DNA of 30,861 nt from a virus: the IMG/VR virus record IMGVR_UViG_3300048597_000148, positions 1 to 30,861 of that record. One strand, written 5' to 3'. The notes under the pieces are model-generated. The model searched no databases and was not told the origin of the DNA. It saw nothing but the letters and a program-made list of their open reading frames with translations. Below, piece after piece: positions 5,643 through 18,633 of the stretch. Every line of letters starts with the position of its first letter. Within the stretch, counting starts at the first letter, position 1. A program made the translations under genes and the position numbers.

Positions 5643-7294
5643 CCGACCTCAAAGGCCGCAAACTCAGCCCCAAGGCGTTCAAGGACAGCATGGACCAGCT
5701 GCGCGCCTCGATGCGCGCGGCGATCGACGCAAATGTCGACGGCTTCCCCATCGACGAGGCACTGCGTCAGACGCGGCGCAAGACCGTGCTGGCTCCTGAC
5801 GGTTTCCGGTTTTTCTGCGAGACCTATTTCCCCCATTACCTCACCGAGGCTCCGAGCCGGCTGCATCTCCACCTGTTCGAGGATCTGCCGCAGATGCTCC
5901 TCAGCGAGGCTGCGGCAGGGCGCAAGGGGCACCGCCGGCTGAAGATCGCGCCGCGCGGTTCGGCCAAATCGACCATCGCCACGCAGTTGTTCACGCTGTG
6001 GTGCGCGCTGCGCGGCCTCAAGCGCTTCATCATCATCGCCATGGACACCTATGAGCAGGCGGCGCTCATGGTCGAAGCGATCAAGGTGGAGATCGAGAGC
6101 AATCCGCGCCTCGCCTATGACTATCCCGAGTTCACCGGCGCGGGCCGCCGTTGGCGCGAGGGCGAGGTCGTGACGCGCAACCGCGTGATGATGCTGGGCG
6201 CCGGCGCGCGCCAGGCGCTGCGCGGCAAGCGGCATGGGCCGCACCGCCCCGATCTCGTCATCCTCGACGACATCGAGAACGACGTGAACGTCGAAAGCCC
6301 CGCCTATCGCAACAAACTGCAGGGCTGGGTCGAAAAGGCCGTCGCGAAGCTGGGCGCCGCGGATGGCTCGCTCGACATAGTCATGCTCGGCACCGTGCTG
6401 CATTACGATTCGGTTCTGGTGCGGATGTCGCGACAGCCCGGCTGGGAGGCGCGGCACTTCAAGGCGGTGGAGAGTTTCCCCGACCGCATGGATCTCTGGG
6501 ACCGCTGGCAGGAAGTCCTGCTCAACATCGGCGAGGATGACGCCCACGCCTTCTATCTCGCCAACCGCACGGAGATGGACCGGGGCGCGGTGGTCAACTG
6601 GCCACAGGTCGAGACGCTCTATGCGCTGATGGTCGAGCGCGCATCATCCGAAACGGCCTTCATGTCGGAGAAGCAGGGCGAGCCGATCTCCGAGGAAAGT
6701 CCTTTCCGCGCCATCCAGTTCTGGGTGATGAAACAGACGCGCTGGATATTCTTCGGCGCGGTGGACCCCTCTCTGGGAAAGCACGGCGCGAACCGCGACC
6801 CGTCCGCCATCCTGGTCGGCGGGCTGGATCCGGAGACCGGCGTGCTCGATGTGGTCGAGGCGTCGATCGCGCGGCGGCTGCCCGATGTCATCATCTCCGA
6901 CGTGATCGCCATGGCGAAGCGCTGGCAACCGGCGCTCTGGTTTGTCGAGGCGGTGCAGTTCCAGGAGTTCCTGCGCACCGAGATCATGAAGGAGGCGGTG
7001 CGCCAGGAGGTGGCCCTGCCTGCGCTTCCAGTGCTGCCTATCGCCGACAAAAGCCTGCGCATCCAGAGGCTGCAGCCGCCGATGCTCGCCGGTCTCATTC
7101 GCCTGCACCCGTCGCAGACAGCCCTTTTGGAGCAGCTCAGGCAATGGCCCTCGGGCGCTCATGATGACGGGCCGGATTGCCTCGAGATGCTGTGGTCGGG
7201 CGCGGTGACACGCGGCGGGGCGATGGGCGGGGCCGGCGCCGCCATCAGGATGGCCGGGCGCAGCGGCGGAGCAACCGATGGCTGGAGGATGTGA
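5639..7294 (+). CDS. Terminase large subunit (Mu gp28-like)
   Basis: A 551-residue packaging motor. Walker A lies at about residues 104-112 (APRGSAKST), Walker B at about 205-210 (LVILDD, followed by IEND), and the RNase H-like nuclease begins near residue 374 with AVDPSLGK, giving the first catalytic Asp at about 376; ALWFVEAVQFQ is the following nuclease strand. The length fits Mu-type large terminases, which cut headfuls from integrated copies. The end overlaps the portal gene start (TGATG). Confidence 0.93.
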   Translation: MTDLKGRKLSPKAFKDSMDQLRASMRAAIDANVDGFPIDEALRQTRRKTVLAPDGFRFFCETYFPHYLTEAPSRLHLHLFEDLPQMLLSEAAAGRKGHRRLKIAPRGSAKSTIATQLFTLWCALRGLKRFIIIAMDTYEQAALMVEAIKVEIESNPRLAYDYPEFTGAGRRWREGEVVTRNRVMMLGAGARQALRGKRHGPHRPDLVILDDIENDVNVESPAYRNKLQGWVEKAVAKLGAADGSLDIVMLGTVLHYDSVLVRMSRQPGWEARHFKAVESFPDRMDLWDRWQEVLLNIGEDDAHAFYLANRTEMDRGAVVNWPQVETLYALMVERASSETAFMSEKQGEPISEESPFRAIQFWVMKQTRWIFFGAVDPSLGKHGANRDPSAILVGGLDPETGVLDVVEASIARRLPDVIISDVIAMAKRWQPALWFVEAVQFQEFLRTEIMKEAVRQEVALPALPVLPIADKSLRIQRLQPPMLAGLIRLHPSQTALLEQLRQWPSGAHDDGPDCLEMLWSGAVTRGGAMGGAGAAIRMAGRSGGATDGWRM

Positions 7295-10308: not shown

Positions 10309-10881
10309 ATGACGCTCGACATCCGTCTCAAGATCGATGCCGCCGGCATCGCCCGGGCCGAAGCTGTGATGGCCGAGCTGTCCGCAAAGGCGCGCAATCC
10401 CTCGGGCGGTCTGAAAGTGATCGGCGAAGCGCTCCTGAAAGCGCAGCGCAGGCGATTCGAGACAGGCACGGATCCGGATGGCAAGAAATGGGCACCGCTC
10501 AAGCCGTTGACGGTCCTGCTTCGTGGCGCGCGCGGGCCGATCCTGCGCCGCTCGGGCGCGCTGATGAAATCCAGCGCATATCAGGTCAGCGGCAAGACGC
10601 TGCGCGTCGGCGTCAACACGATCTATGCGGCGGCCCAGCAGTTCGGCGCGACGATCGTGCCGAAGAAAGGCAAGATGCTGGCAATCCCTATGGGCGGCGC
10701 GCGCATCAGCCGGCCTCGTGGCGGGCTGGTGGTGGGCAAGGCGACCAGCCGTCATCCCGGCAAGGTAGTGATGGCGCGGCAGGTGACATTGCCGCCGCGT
10801 CCTATGGTGGGCTTCGGTGCGCTGGATGAGGCCGCATCGCGGCGCGCCGTCGCCCAATGGCTGGCTGTCGAGCCGCGTTGA
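10309..10881 (+). CDS. Phage virion morphogenesis protein (Mu gpG / tail completion family)
   Basis: A 190-residue protein beginning at ATG 10309 after a weak GGGAAAAACTCA leader. The family landmarks are visible: an N-terminal helical part, RRFETGTDPDGKKWAPL, a GPILRRSGALMKSSAYQV segment, TIYAAAQQFGATI and the PPRPMVGFGALDE region. In Mu, gpG is needed for head-tail joining or neck assembly. It stands right after gpF as in Mu, but here it is followed by an inserted regulatory region instead of gene I. Confidence 0.88.
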   Translation: MTLDIRLKIDAAGIARAEAVMAELSAKARNPSGGLKVIGEALLKAQRRRFETGTDPDGKKWAPLKPLTVLLRGARGPILRRSGALMKSSAYQVSGKTLRVGVNTIYAAAQQFGATIVPKKGKMLAIPMGGARISRPRGGLVVGKATSRHPGKVVMARQVTLPPRPMVGFGALDEAASRRAVAQWLAVEPR

Positions 10882-11184
10882 CGCGGGGGCTCAGGGGTGC
10901 CGCTGAGGGGCCACGGGCCATCACCCTACCGGACGCATTGTGGATGCTCGCTACGGAGCGTCAGACGGGCGTCAGAATCAAAGCGGCTTGATGGGCTATT
11001 GGCGGATGCCGGCGCGATCGATGATGTGCAGGATTCGCACGATCGAAAACATGCGCAAGCTCATGTAGGCGCAGGCTCCATACCACAACGCAAACAGCGT
11101 CCGGCTGGCGGAGTCGGCCCGCCATAGCCTTTCGGCTAGCCGACGGCGCGCCAACCGACGCTGAAAAAATCTGCATCTGCCCTG
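10882..11184. other. Non-coding or remnant region left of the inserted locus
   Basis: About 300 bp without a rightward gene. On the minus strand a frame ending at TAG 10996-10998 stays open leftwards from about 11189 and reads like protein in its last 40 codons (SRTLFALWYGACAYMSLRMF, then a helical IVRILHIIDRAGIRQ). It has no ATG at a suitable place and no ribosome site, so it may be a remnant. A palindromic stretch around 11108-11145 (GGCTAGCC core) is also present. No RNA gene is recognised. Confidence 0.4.
10996..11154 (-). CDS. Possible 52-residue membrane protein or gene remnant
   Basis: Starting at a TTG (11154), this frame gives 52 residues: a basic arginine-rich N-terminus (LARRRLAERLWRADSASR), a short hydrophobic stretch (TLFALWYGACAYMSL) and an amphipathic end. 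The composition is protein-like, but the start has no Shine-Dalgarno and the frame could be a leftover of a longer gene. It would be divergent from the operator-controlled gene at 11273. Low confidence. Confidence 0.25.
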   Translation of the reverse strand: MARRRLAERLWRADSASRTLFALWYGACAYMSLRMFSIVRILHIIDRAGIRQ

Positions 11185-11216
11185 TTGACACGGATACGCA
11201 AATTGCGTATATATAT
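11185..11216 (+). promoter_or_regulatory. Strong sigma70-like promoter overlapped by a 17-bp palindromic operator
   Basis: A perfect -35 box TTGACA (11185-11190) is followed, after exactly 17 bases, by TATATA (11208-11213). The spacer and the -10 box contain the perfect palindrome ATACGCAAATTGCGTAT (11194-11210; eight-base arms around a central A). A dimeric repressor bound here would block RNA polymerase. The site precedes the two-gene locus 11273-11979, whose second gene encodes a helix-turn-helix protein and is the obvious candidate regulator. Confidence 0.8.
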
Positions 11217-11238
11217 CGCATCAACAAAGGTTGATGCG
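11217..11238 (+). promoter_or_regulatory. 9-bp-arm inverted repeat at the transcript start
   Basis: CGCATCAAC (11217-11225) and GTTGATGCG (11230-11238) are perfect inverted repeats around AAAG. With the -10 box at 11208-11213 the transcript would begin near 11220, so the repeat is either a second operator at +1 or a hairpin at the extreme 5' end of the mRNA, where it could stabilise the message. Confidence 0.6.
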
Positions 11239-11272
11239 GGCGCCTCGCCGGATCAGGGGTGGAGATACGGAC

Positions 11273-11509
11273 ATGACTTATGTGATCGTCGTCAGCCGCG
11301 AGTTTTACGGCCCCGCCACGCGCAAGAGCCTCTACCTCCGCGACGATGGGCAGAGCGCCCGCAAGTTCGCCACGCGCGACGCGGCCAAGGCTTTCATCAG
11401 CGACCTCGATGGCGAGACCTATCACCTCGCCCACAATGAGAGCGGGCGCGCCTCCTACAAGATCGCCCGCATCGACGCCCTGCCCGCCTATCTCGCGGAT
11501 CAGGTCTGA
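11273..11509 (+). CDS. Small protein of unknown function, first gene of the inserted locus
   Basis: A 78-residue protein; ATG 11273 follows GGAG with eight bases between, which rejects the upstream TTG at 11231 lying inside the inverted repeat. The sequence has an N-terminal strand (TYVIVVSREFYG), a central helix (TRDAAKAFISDLDG) and the later YHLAHNESGRASYKIARI. It resembles small alpha/beta proteins carried on alphaproteobacterial phages and plasmids, but I cannot name a family. It is controlled by the promoter/operator at 11185-11216 and separated from the regulator gene by a hairpin. Confidence 0.7.
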   Translation: MTYVIVVSREFYGPATRKSLYLRDDGQSARKFATRDAAKAFISDLDGETYHLAHNESGRASYKIARIDALPAYLADQV

Positions 11510-11515
11510 CCCGGA

Positions 11516-11543
11516 GGGGCGGCGAGAGCCGCCCCACCTTTTT
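11516..11543 (+). terminator. Rho-independent terminator or attenuator inside the two-gene locus
   Basis: GGGGCGGC (11516-11523) pairs with GCCGCCCC (11528-11535) around GAGA, followed by ACC and five T (11539-11543). The Shine-Dalgarno GGAGG of the next gene begins at the next base. Most transcripts should stop here, so the small protein would be made in excess over the helix-turn-helix protein. Confidence 0.72.
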
Positions 11544-11556
11544 GGAGGAAGCAACC

Positions 11557-11979
11557 ATGGACAAGTCGGACAACCGGGCGCGGGTGCGCCTGCGGCCCCT
11601 CGGCGACGACGCCCCGCGCTCGCCGCCCGGATACACACTGCTCGCCGTCATGGACGCCCCGCGCGAAGGGTGGCTGGCGCGTTCGCAGGCCGGCGTCCTG
11701 GTCTGCTACACCGGCCATGGCGTGGCAAGCGTTGACGCACGCAAGGCGCAGGCGGCCTATGAAAAGATGATGGCGGCCCAAGTGATGCGCCCCGACGATC
11801 CAGCGGAACTGGCCGCCGATCTCAAAAGATGGCGGGGAGACATGTCCATCCATGCCGCTGCGGCGGCGCTAGGAGTGTCGGCGCGCACTCTGGAGGGCGT
11901 CGAGCAAGGGCGAGGCTTCGCCCATCCGCGACTGCTGCGCATCGCGATGGCCGTCGTCAAGGTGAGCGAGCGCAAGTGA
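11557..11979 (+). CDS. Helix-turn-helix (Xre-like) protein, likely regulator of the inserted locus
   Basis: A 140-residue protein; ATG 11557 follows GGAGGAAGCAACC. The C-terminal third (about residues 96-137) is a helix-turn-helix: MSIHAAAAALGVSARTLEGV, then EQGRGFAHPRLLRIAMAVV. The first 85 residues are an uncharacterised domain with predicted strands (GYTLLAVMDAP, GVLVCYTGHGV) followed by a helix (ARKAQAAYEKMMAAQ). The gene lies behind a terminator-like hairpin and downstream of a palindromic operator, which suggests autoregulation. It could be the antitoxin-like partner of the preceding small protein, but toxicity of that partner is not shown by the sequence. Confidence 0.72.
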   Translation: MDKSDNRARVRLRPLGDDAPRSPPGYTLLAVMDAPREGWLARSQAGVLVCYTGHGVASVDARKAQAAYEKMMAAQVMRPDDPAELAADLKRWRGDMSIHAAAAALGVSARTLEGVEQGRGFAHPRLLRIAMAVVKVSERK

Positions 11980-12261
11980 TGGCATGGCACGGCGCGCGCG
12001 CTCGTCGACGTCGAGCGGCTCGATGCCTTCTGGCCTGAAATTGCCAGGCTTGTCGTCGCCCTGGATCCGGCACATGTCGCAAATGTAAAGGCCACGCCTG
12101 CGCTGGATGGTCTCCATCCTCAACGCTACGCCATTGCGGGTCTCTTGCCGCCGGTCATGCAGCGCCGCCCTTTCGATCCGGTCAATAGCTTCAGCGATCT
12201 GCGTGGGTTCGTTGCCGATGCGTGAAATCTTGTAGAAACGCGCCGTGAAGTGCCTGTCCAT
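11869..12261 (-). pseudogene. Leftward gene with genuine N-terminus, 3' end lost into the neighbour
   Basis: The minus-strand ATG at 12261 has GGAG nine bases upstream and starts MDRHFTARFYKISRIGNEPT; an ATG at 12270 is too close to that site. About 93 residues read as real protein (helical IAEAIDRIERAALHDRRQE, strand ALRMETIQ, and GLYICDMCRIQG with a CxxC). After LDVDERARRAMP (near 11980) the frame runs antisense into the helix-turn-helix gene and stops only at 11869, so the natural C-terminus has probably been lost by a deletion. The full protein would be 130 residues. Family not recognised. A possible operator lies upstream at 12321-12334. Confidence 0.5.
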
Positions 12262-12320
12262 GCGAGTCATCTCCAGTGATGCGGAGATTGTGCGAGGATT
12301 CGCCGGGCTCAGGATTTAAC

Positions 12321-12352
12321 ATAGGCAATTTGCCCTGTGGAAAAGCCCGGGA
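12321..12352 (-). promoter_or_regulatory. Putative leftward promoter with degenerate operator copy
   Basis: On the plus strand ATAGGCAATTTGCC (12321-12334) matches the operator at 11194-11210 (read on its other strand) at 12 of the first 13 bases, including the whole GCAATTTGC core; the flanking C/G pair is swapped symmetrically. Reading leftward, TTTCCA, an 18-base spacer containing this core, and TTAAAT form a plausible promoter for the gene at 12261. The same regulator may have controlled both genes. Confidence 0.45.
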
Positions 12353-12557
12353 TATGCACAGGTGATCGCTTGTCCAGCGTGAAGGGCAGCATTCGCCAGC
12401 GGGCTTGCCGCACTTCAACTGCCGCGGCAAAAAGAAAAGCGGCGTCTGTCCTTGCGGCCCGCTGTGTGAACGTCGCACCTAACCGCTTCCGGCAAATCCT
12501 TTCAAAGCTCGTCCTGCAATGCCCGCCAAGGGCTGTTCACGCGGAGATGGGGACGAG
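12353..12557. other. Gap before the I gene
   Basis: About 200 bp between the leftward promoter and the protease gene. A short rightward frame (12367-12480) ends in a cysteine-rich stretch (GVCPCGPLCERRT) but has no acceptable start. A late promoter for the I-T module is expected here by analogy with Mu, but no clear -10 box or Mor/C-type site was found. Confidence 0.35.
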
Positions 12558-13712
12558 ATGCCGGGAGGCGGCCAGACAGCCAGCAGCGCAGCCAGCAGCA
12601 AGACCACCCGCACCGTGGAGGTGTTCCGGCCCGGCACGTTCACGCCCATGGCCGGCGCGCCTATTTCGTTCACCGAAGCCGATCTCAAGGCGCTGGCCTC
12701 CGGCTATGACGCCGCCGCGCATCCCGCCCCGGCCGTGGTCGGCCACCCCAAGACCGATGACCCGGCCTTCGCATGGGCGAGCGCCTTCCGTTGGGACGAG
12801 GGCAGCAAGCGGCTCCTGGCGGATTTGGCCGATATCGAGCCGGCCTTCGGCGAGGCGGTGGCGGCGGGTCGATACAAGCGCATCTCGCTGTCTCTTTTCA
12901 CACCCGACGCGCCGCACAACCCGAAGCCCGGCGCGTATTATCCGAAACATATCGGCTTCCTTGGCGCGGCCGCGCCGGCCGTCAGCGGACTGAAGCCGGT
13001 CCAGTTCGCGGGCGACGAGGGTGTGGTCACCTTCGCCGACGGCACCGCGCTGCGCGATGTCGCCGGCCTGTTCCGCTCGATGCGTGATTTCATCATCGAG
13101 AAATTCGGCCTCGAAACCGCCGACAAGGCCCTGCCGGCCTGGTCGATCAGCTGGGTCGATGAGGCAGCTGAGCGCGACCCGCCCGAGGTTGGCCGCATGA
13201 CAAGTTTCGCCGCGCCGGCGGCCCCGACATCCCCTGAACCGGAGAAGACAATGGACCCGAAGACGTCCGCTGACGCCACAGCGCTTGAGGCGCGCGCGGC
13301 CAATCTCGACAAGCGCGAGCGCGATCTCGCCCATGCCGACAATCTGGCGTTCGCCGAGAGGCTCGTGACCGAGGGCCGGCTCCTGCCTGTCCTGAAAGAC
13401 AAGACCGTCGGCCTGCTCGACGCGCTGTCGCCCATCGGCGCGGCGCGGCTCGAGGTCGCGTTCGCGGAAGGCGGCGAGACGAAGAACGAGGGCGGCGCGG
13501 ACCTCCTGAAATCGATCCTCGCCGCGCAGCCCGCGATCCGCTTCGGCGCCGTGGATCTTGGCGAGGAGCCGGGCGGCATCGCCGAGTTCGCGCTGCCGCA
13601 GGGCATGGCGGCGGACCCGGCGTCCGCAATCACCCACAACAAGGCGTTGGCCCACCAGGCCGCGCATCCGGGCACCGATTACATGGCGGCCGTGGCCGCC
13701 GTCACGCGCTGA
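12558..13712 (+). CDS. Head maturation protease-scaffold (Mu gpI-like)
   Basis: A 384-residue protein. I prefer ATG 12558, preceded by GGAGATGGGGACGAG; an in-frame ATG at 12519 has no ribosome site. The protease half carries the family segments FRPGTFTPMAG, APAVVGHPKTDDPAFAW (the conserved His), KRISLSLF (a likely nucleophile Ser region) and PKHIGFLGAAAP. The second half, from about residue 232, is the scaffold: a charged coiled coil (LDKRERDLAHADNLAFAERL) and an alanine-rich tail. In Mu, I cleaves the scaffold during head maturation. An internal start at 13251 allows the scaffold to be made alone. Confidence 0.9.
   Translation: MPGGGQTASSAASSKTTRTVEVFRPGTFTPMAGAPISFTEADLKALASGYDAAAHPAPAVVGHPKTDDPAFAWASAFRWDEGSKRLLADLADIEPAFGEAVAAGRYKRISLSLFTPDAPHNPKPGAYYPKHIGFLGAAAPAVSGLKPVQFAGDEGVVTFADGTALRDVAGLFRSMRDFIIEKFGLETADKALPAWSISWVDEAAERDPPEVGRMTSFAAPAAPTSPEPEKTMDPKTSADATALEARAANLDKRERDLAHADNLAFAERLVTEGRLLPVLKDKTVGLLDALSPIGAARLEVAFAEGGETKNEGGADLLKSILAAQPAIRFGAVDLGEEPGGIAEFALPQGMAADPASAITHNKALAHQAAHPGTDYMAAVAAVTR
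13251..13712 (+). CDS. Scaffold protein from internal start (Mu gpZ-like)
   Basis: Within the protease gene, GGAGAAGACA stands directly before an in-frame ATG at 13251. Starting there gives 153 residues: the coiled-coil scaffold region and C-terminus of gpI without the protease. Mu makes its scaffold Z in the same way from the 3' part of I. The upstream proline-rich linker (APAAPTSPEPEKT) marks the domain border, which fits a nested product. Confidence 0.72.
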   Translation: MDPKTSADATALEARAANLDKRERDLAHADNLAFAERLVTEGRLLPVLKDKTVGLLDALSPIGAARLEVAFAEGGETKNEGGADLLKSILAAQPAIRFGAVDLGEEPGGIAEFALPQGMAADPASAITHNKALAHQAAHPGTDYMAAVAAVTR

Positions 13713-17974: not shown

Positions 17975-18496
17975 ATGCGCGAGATCCGCATAGGTCAGAC
18001 CACCAATGTCGACGCCTATCTCGAAGGCGCGCGCCTGATCGGGCGCATCGAGGAGTTCGAGCTCGACAAGGTGGGCTATGAGGTCGTGACACATCAGGCG
18101 CTCGGCATGATCGGCAAAGTGGAGTTGCCGGGCCGGGCGCTGGAGCCGATCAAGGCCAAGATTAAGTTCGGCTGGCTCGAAACAGATCTGTGGATCCGCA
18201 CCGCGAAGCCGAATGTGGCGATGCCGCTGCAGTTCGAGAAGTTCGTCGATGTGTTCGACGCCGGCGGGGTCGTGGCGGCCGAGGGTTACCGGATCATCAC
18301 CATGGTGAGCCTCCTGTTCACCGAGCAGACGCTCGGCGCCTTCAAGATGGGCGATGACCCCATCGGCCTCGAGCATGAATGCTCCGTGACCCGCCTCGTC
18401 ACCAAGAGCACCGAGAACGGCAAGTTCATCCGCGAGATCGACGTGTTCCAGAACATCAACCGCGTCGACGGCAAGGATGTCTGGCCCGCCTACTGA
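17975..18496 (+). CDS. Major tail tube protein (P2 FII-like)
   Basis: A 173-residue protein; ATG 17975 follows GGAGAGCAACC. It is strand-rich, with the FII-type opening EIRIGQTTNVDAYLEGARL, the central VELPGRALEPIKAKIKF and the C-terminal FIREIDVFQNINRVDGKDV. The length matches P2 FII. It stacks as hexameric rings inside the sheath. The neighbours (sheath before, E/E' chaperone after) agree with the P2 order. Confidence 0.92.
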   Translation: MREIRIGQTTNVDAYLEGARLIGRIEEFELDKVGYEVVTHQALGMIGKVELPGRALEPIKAKIKFGWLETDLWIRTAKPNVAMPLQFEKFVDVFDAGGVVAAEGYRIITMVSLLFTEQTLGAFKMGDDPIGLEHECSVTRLVTKSTENGKFIREIDVFQNINRVDGKDVWPAY

Positions 18497-18498
18497 AC

Positions 18499-18633
18499 AT
18501 GAACCAGAGCGCGCTCGAAACAACCTTGAACGATCTCGTCGCCGCCGCGCGCCAGGCGGGGCTCTCCACGCAGACAATCGTGGCGACGCTCCAGATCGTG
18601 ACCGAGGTGGCGAAGGATGAAGATGATGGCTGA
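18499..18633 (+). CDS. 44-residue helical protein between tube and tail chaperone
   Basis: ATG 18499 lies two bases after the tube stop and reads MNQSALETTLNDLVAAARQA, then a second amphipathic helix with TIVATLQIVTEVAKDEDDG. The end overlaps the start region of the E-like gene, so it could couple translation to it. There is no clear Shine-Dalgarno other than the end of the tube gene. Probably a real small protein or a leader peptide; function unknown. Confidence 0.5.
   Translation: MNQSALETTLNDLVAAARQAGLSTQTIVATLQIVTEVAKDEDDG

Follow-up and report, generated by a model that had tools for sequence, protein, structure and literature searches.

Putative AcrIC8-type operon of a Mu-like phage: candidate new Aca, conserved structured leader and location in a variable cargo slot

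The stretch of DNA analyzed here (the window) comprises the 30,861 bases of virus record IMGVR_UViG_3300048597_000148, a metagenome-type record with Mu-like head genes. Between the genes for a tail completion protein and a head maturation protease (termed G and I after phage Mu), it carries a cassette with two genes in the layout of one operon behind a single detected promoter, the first encoding a 78-amino-acid (aa) protein resembling the anti-CRISPR AcrIC8 and the second a 140-aa helix-turn-helix (HTH) protein. This cassette quite likely represents an acr-aca operon for counter-defence, combining an AcrIC8-family anti-CRISPR with an HTH autorepressor. All elements listed in a preliminary description of the interval, i.e., promoter, palindrome, second inverted repeat, small open reading frame (ORF), hairpin, HTH gene and truncated gene, were found by sequence. 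Within the cassette, the features are the following.

11118..12000: replacement cassette, about 880 bp that show no similarity to the corresponding 938 bp of relative L002 (blastn of the flanks)
11185..11213, plus strand: promoter with −35 box TTGACA (11185-11190), 17-nt spacer and −10 box TATATA (11208-11213)
11194..11210, plus strand: operator palindrome ATACGCAAATTGCGTAT, exact, with the core TACGC-N5-GCGTA at 11195-11209
11216..11239, plus strand: leader hairpin 1, containing the second inverted repeat, with compensatory changes across loci
11241..11261, plus strand: leader hairpin 2, ending at the ribosome-binding site GGAG (11261-11264)
11273..11509, plus strand: acr-like gene (78 aa, P0006), AcrIC8 homologue by phmmer against PDB
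11516..11535, plus strand: terminator-like hairpin between both genes, 8 GC pairs followed by ACCTTTTTGG (T run)
11557..11979, plus strand: aca-like gene (140 aa, P0001) for the HTH protein, assigned by Pfam HTH_31, AlphaFold2 model and relatives

When comparing the 78-aa protein with the PDB sequences by phmmer, a single match was obtained, AcrIC8 (8g9s_A, E 6.3e-11), which extends over residues 3-66 with 29 of 64 residues identical and spans nearly the entire 70-residue AcrIC8 chain. Both proteins have the identical eight-residue run LAHNESGR in common, and LAHNES followed by R and Y, invariant in six aligned members of the AcrIC8 family, is present in the 78-aa protein as well. Judged by these sequence features, it belongs to the AcrIC8 anti-CRISPR family and is predicted to inhibit CRISPR-Cas. 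The acr-aca hypothesis had been recorded prior to this match; small variable genes ahead of an HTH gene suggest acr-aca (PMC9410906). AcrIC8 of Pseudomonas aeruginosa is an inhibitor of both type I-C and type I-E CRISPR-Cas. It hinders recognition of the protospacer adjacent motif allosterically (PMC11640852) and is tied to aca4 and Tn3-type elements in Pseudomonas (PMC7913775). The 78-aa protein gave no match to a toxin family, Pfam or NCBIfam up to E 1, and neither of the two cassette proteins matched a PADLOC defence family up to E 1. Its structure model is poor (predicted local distance difference test, pLDDT, of 57.5) and the fold search was uninformative.

Relatives of the 78-aa protein were not found by single-protein scan in viral contigs, genome contigs or phages, and 397 genomes gave one weak match with an internal stop (L243), which was not used. 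Likewise, the AcrIC8 fragment had no match in plasmids or phages and the cassette DNA none in plasmids; a match of the 78-aa protein in a Sinorhizobium plasmid was dropped, as it is the N-terminal part of a longer partition/replication-like ORF and is not accompanied by an operator. Scanning with an alignment of two sequences, by contrast to the single protein, revealed AcrIC8-like relatives at nine loci (28-56% identical). At L234-L239, the acr-like gene is followed by a short ORF resembling another DNA-binding protein, and three of these ORFs were scanned, showing Pfam matches below the cut-off (RHH_1 0.027, HTH_23 0.024 and Sigma70_r4 0.062). At L240 (2454-2969), the AcrIC8-like domain makes up the C-terminus of a larger protein (about 170 aa).

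The HTH protein matches Pfam HTH_31 slightly below the cut-off of 27 (26.4 bits, E 8.6e-6). Its AlphaFold2 model (pLDDT 88) predicts strands and a long helix followed by a C-terminal HTH. Fold matches are confined to residues 79-140, and therefore nothing is claimed on the fold of the N-domain. Among the matches of the model are ClgR (Z 8.0, root mean square deviation 2.6, 58 residues aligned), Aca10 (7.5, 2.0 and 55, respectively) and Aca2 (7.2, 2.2 and 56), which are tied and not discriminating; Aca7 is also among the tied matches. A single-protein scan with the HTH protein revealed no relatives in viral contigs, phages or plasmids, nor did the 34 genomes and records behind the prophage loci contain any match. 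Genome searches and an alignment-based scan, however, gave 11 further loci of the HTH family (L165, L166 and L177-L185); the matches at L167-L169 and nearly all those from other searches, beyond two known ones, were weak and not used. In L218, L220 and L233 (see below for these loci), the N-domain has its own gene ahead of the HTH gene, and in L177 and L179 it is fused to the HTH. The N-domain of the window protein can be aligned with those of the relatives, a link not given by phmmer alone.

The operator ATACGCAAATTGCGTAT occupies most of the promoter spacer and overlaps the −10 box. It is the sole site in the window when allowing up to 3 mismatches, 0.06 being expected from shuffling. The promoter itself was not reported by the promoter scanner, as its rule requires T as the final −10 base. 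Of the 12 loci of the HTH family (window counted), which were picked by protein similarity and not by operator, 8 have TACGC-N5-GCGTA at a distance of at most 500 bp upstream of the HTH gene, and 10 have it between −1000 and +400, though these loci are not independent because L165, L166, L182 and L183 are closely related; L183 has the site with one mismatch. By contrast, not a single site was found in 129 control prophage loci (1.30 Mb) selected via protein I. Operator and HTH family are linked, and the view of a self-regulated accessory locus, already put forward in the preliminary description, is supported by this co-occurrence of palindrome and protein family. Moreover, the window, L177, L178 and L184 have the operator at the identical position between TTGAC and TATA, and several relatives have a second operator upstream of the promoter, which is missing in the window. 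From this arrangement, the HTH protein is predicted to bind the operator and thereby probably represses the acr-like gene.

The bare palindrome is not diagnostic, with 30 stretches in viral contigs, none of them encoding the HTH protein or the 78-aa protein, and hence the promoter geometry was used for searching. With the promoter-operator DNA pattern alone, 35 stretches were retrieved from viral contigs, 3 of them already known (L205, L214 and L219). Members of the HTH family are present on three of the 32 new stretches (L218, L220 and L224; E 2e-24 to 1e-16), as compared to none of the 129 controls (one-sided Fisher p 0.007), and L222 shows a weak match (E 9e-5). The other 28 gave no HTH-family match up to E 0.01, many of them being BrnT- or HicA-type operons, so that the geometry has to be regarded as a general autorepressor design not exclusive to the HTH family. 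With TACGC-N5-GCGTA in the promoter spacer, 11 contigs are BrnT-like (L197, L198, L203, L207, L208, L211, L212, L216, L225, L228 and L231) and another three HicA-like (L199, L200 and L210), an assignment verified by Pfam for one of each type. In L220, the HTH gene is followed by one more operator-promoter copy (6878-7180, minus strand), from which a further unknown gene of 100 aa is driven.

Between promoter and first ATG, the window, L177, L179, L218, L220 and L224 have a leader in common. A covariance model built from these six leaders and run on 397 genomes added L232 and L233. The latter, from an unrelated genome, carries a complete cassette with two operator-like repeats (one exact), leader, small gene, N-domain gene and HTH gene; in L232, which lacks the operator, the leader is joined by a Gp111-like gene, and a transposase-like ORF lies upstream. 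The second inverted repeat noticed beforehand at +1, GCATCAAC-AAAG-GTTGATGC at 11218-11237, is indeed present and turned out to be the first of two hairpins in this conserved leader. Helix 1 is paired in all 8 sequences, and in 3 of its 6 pairs both partners have changed, compared to 0 or 1 pairs in controls with the partner shifted by 1-3 columns; one of the alignments was fitted to the model, while a free alignment yields identical pairs. Helix 2 is conserved without compensatory change. Single leader sequences would not prove a structure, since the fold z-scores of six leaders tested range from −4.1 to +0.3. No Rfam family matched the leader above the curated score. As hairpin 1 covaries, we infer that the operon is also controlled at the RNA level, and the leader hairpins probably add translational control. 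The idea was inspired by the RNA-binding role of Aca2, for which no paper on RNA binding was found.

By phmmer, the first genes of the eight leader loci fall into five types: L177, L179 and L220 (the LHSGFANI family), L224 and L232 (Gp111-like), and window, L218 and L233 each alone. Those of L177, L218 and L233 gave nothing significant in the PDB sequence search, and none of the eight matched an anti-CRISPR in NCBIfam. Five dissimilar first genes at eight leader loci suggest that leader and HTH gene form a portable control module, which makes the other first genes candidates for anti-defence functions as well. Tentatively, and with less confidence than doubt, a module of alphaproteobacterial mobile elements might be envisaged in which one or two operators in and ahead of the promoter, the two-hairpin leader and the HTH repressor, often fused to or adjoining a second small domain with a DQRKA-like motif, govern interchangeable anti-defence genes; control would act on transcription as well as translation, with the leader RNA being read by the regulator or its N-domain. 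The HTH-only members L165, L166, L181, L182 and L183, which may control genomic-island excision, have an excisionase-like ORF directly upstream of the HTH gene and, in the case of L165 and L166, also an integrase-like ORF downstream, operators being located in between.

The cassette is flanked by the following features.

10309-10881: gene G, tail completion (Pfam Phage_tail_S)
10882..11117, minus strand: left remnant of older cargo, 3' end of a membrane-protein gene and the stretch adjoining G (DNA match)
12001..12270, minus strand: remnant of older DUF6731-type cargo gene, first 90 codons (match to the L002 protein)
12519-13712: gene I, head maturation protease (phrog_976, family match)

The closest relatives, L001 and L002, possess a protein I 78% and 77% identical to that of the window and a G-I interval of similar length, which holds a leftward gene pair encoding a 290-aa protein and a smaller one (about 180 aa) that contains hydrophobic stretches. 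The former shows DUF6731 in L002 (E 1.2e-6), while the L001 version matched no family up to E 1, and the latter has a weak PADLOC match to a 2TM effector in L002 (E 0.016). The pair (L001 4405-5752 and L002 4411-5752, minus strand) resembles a defence pair of sensor and membrane effector. For the DUF6731 protein, no solved relative up to E 1 and no phage-record match were obtained, and the literature search found no paper on DUF6731. Similarity of the window to both relatives (blastn) stops at 11117 and restarts at 12001, the right edge being approximate as gap-friendly settings extend the right-hand L002 match into the cassette. The left remnant matches L002 4296-4544 and L001 4310-4542, with the membrane-protein gene at L002 4411-4947. 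The leftward truncated gene of the preliminary description is real: in ORF 11869-12270 (minus strand), the first 90 codons are 95.6% identical to the start of the L002 290-aa protein, i.e., it is what remains here of an older cargo pair into which the cassette has cut. Accordingly, the central part of this earlier two-gene cargo (DUF6731 and membrane protein) was exchanged for the cassette, and the cargo is not intact in the window, as about 880 bp stand in place of 938 bp and 90 codons are kept.

For surveying the slot, relatives of protein I were collected from genome and viral contigs, the viral ones being the best 80 of 145. The 132 loci examined included three repeat records, which were dropped, and 90 loci have G upstream on the same strand; the window makes the 91st entry. 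As suspected at the outset, the interval is a variable slot among related prophages, with a gap of at least 500 bp in 24 of the 90 relatives and of less than 500 bp in 66, although entries are not independent because some derive from one strain or from near-identical contigs; in L001 and L002 it is filled with genes different from those of the window. For seven of the 24 loci, a total of ten cargo proteins were analyzed by PADLOC. This revealed PD-Lambda-4 in L060 (E 2.9e-236), a DRT pair in L092 (RT_UG9, E 3.3e-237, and RTasPolA, E 2.5e-171), a candidate defence model in L066 (E 3.1e-10; Pfam RelA_SpoT and NA37) as well as TPR-type and weak matches in L061. No PADLOC match was obtained for the cargo proteins of L065, L070 and L073, the last showing HSDR_N and CHAT by Pfam. 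By these findings, the G-I slot appears to serve alphaproteobacterial Mu-like phages as a cargo site for defence as well as counter-defence genes. The slot also carries uncharacterized two-gene units. Elsewhere in the window, ARAGORN reports a tRNA-Leu (caa) in the tail-gene region (18483-18560, minus strand), which overlaps ORFs and is possibly a false call.

Compared with known systems, the operon shares with AcrIC8 the small first gene in an operon with a DNA-binding protein, but differs in its Mu-like phage context, HTH family, operator and structured leader from the Pseudomonas, aca4 and Tn3-type setting given in PMC7913775. Tested Aca families repress promoters whose core contains an inverted repeat, in some cases together with a second one (PMC9410906), and the inverted repeats to which Aca1 and Aca2 bind overlap −35 and −10 (PMC8434428). 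Correspondingly, the core-promoter inverted repeat is conserved with the HTH family here, and Aca2 and Aca10 (PMC8434428 and PMC9410906) resemble the window in the HTH gene following a small acr gene and in the core-promoter repeat; a second upstream repeat is found in some relatives of the window operon, and Aca10 is an HTH_31 protein, too (PMC9410906). The window HTH protein differs from both in its 140 aa with an extra N-terminal domain and in the C-terminal place of the HTH. BrnT and HicA operons of several viral contigs have the same promoter-operator geometry, but their first gene belongs to a recognized toxin family, unlike that of the window. No paper title describing the window operon was found, most subscription papers lying outside the literature search.

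Several points weigh against an acr-aca operon. Comparison of the window HTH protein with the PDB sequences, which covers solved Aca, matched no Aca. The operator is located downstream in L184 and is absent from L185, BrnT and HicA toxin-antitoxin operons have this promoter geometry as well, and no small gene lies between operator and HTH gene in L165, L166, L182 and L183 (genomic-island type) and in L181. The AcrIC8-like gene is paired with this HTH family solely in the window, and none of the other nine AcrIC8-like loci has the window's operator and leader, for which reason Acr and regulator appear to recombine. Finally, CRISPR inhibition and HTH repression are both deduced rather than observed.

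Among the alternatives, an AcrIC8-like fold serving another job, directed at a different defence or a host process and not at CRISPR-Cas, is unlikely but deserves the most attention, as the family is broad in its nine loci, one member sits within a longer protein, and type I-C activity is lost in one AcrIC7 homologue (PMC7913775); this is opposed by the similarity over nearly the whole AcrIC8 chain including its most conserved block and by the acr-aca layout. Clearly less plausible is a toxin-antitoxin system with the 78-aa protein as toxin and the HTH protein as antitoxin and autorepressor. Toxin-first order, the overlapping operator, the BrnT and HicA operons of the same geometry and HigA- and HipB-type HTH folds among the fold matches would fit, but the 78-aa protein resembles AcrIC8 and no toxin family, and the first gene varies while the HTH family stays, unlike in a cognate pair. 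That the cassette is a prophage defence system is highly improbable, even though the G-I slot holds PD-Lambda-4, DRT and RelA_SpoT plus NA37 cargo elsewhere, since neither protein matches a defence model up to E 1 and the 78-aa protein matches a counter-defence one. From the earlier interpretation, the self-regulated locus in a variable slot persists, whereas the toxin-antitoxin-like or defence function has to give way to counter-defence as the most likely one. A cassette from another element joined in silico would be conceivable for a metagenome-type virus record, particularly as the cassette is found in the G-I slot in the window record only, but such an assembly chimera is scarcely credible given two independent junctions in one known cargo slot and remnants fitting a single replacement.

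In the favored acr-aca operon, the strong promoter would drive an mRNA with the leader, the AcrIC8-family gene and the HTH autorepressor gene. In a cell with type I-C or I-E CRISPR-Cas, the promoter would be unrepressed when the phage enters and a burst of AcrIC8-like protein produced, which might block target binding by Cascade. With the HTH protein building up, it would bind TACGC-N5-GCGTA in the spacer and exclude RNA polymerase, so that expression drops; this timing is a prediction from the layout. Translational control is probably added by the pair of leader hairpins, of which the second terminates at the ribosome-binding site, and the terminator-like hairpin between the genes probably acts as an attenuator setting their ratio.

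With this assignment, an unexplained phage interval becomes a testable counter-defence operon, and another candidate for an Aca family, accompanied by a structured leader that is conserved, is added. Should the portable module hold true, the first genes of L177/L179/L220, L218, L233 and L224/L232 would encode undescribed anti-CRISPRs or other anti-defence proteins, and the combined DNA and RNA signature can find further anti-defence genes without similarity to known ones.

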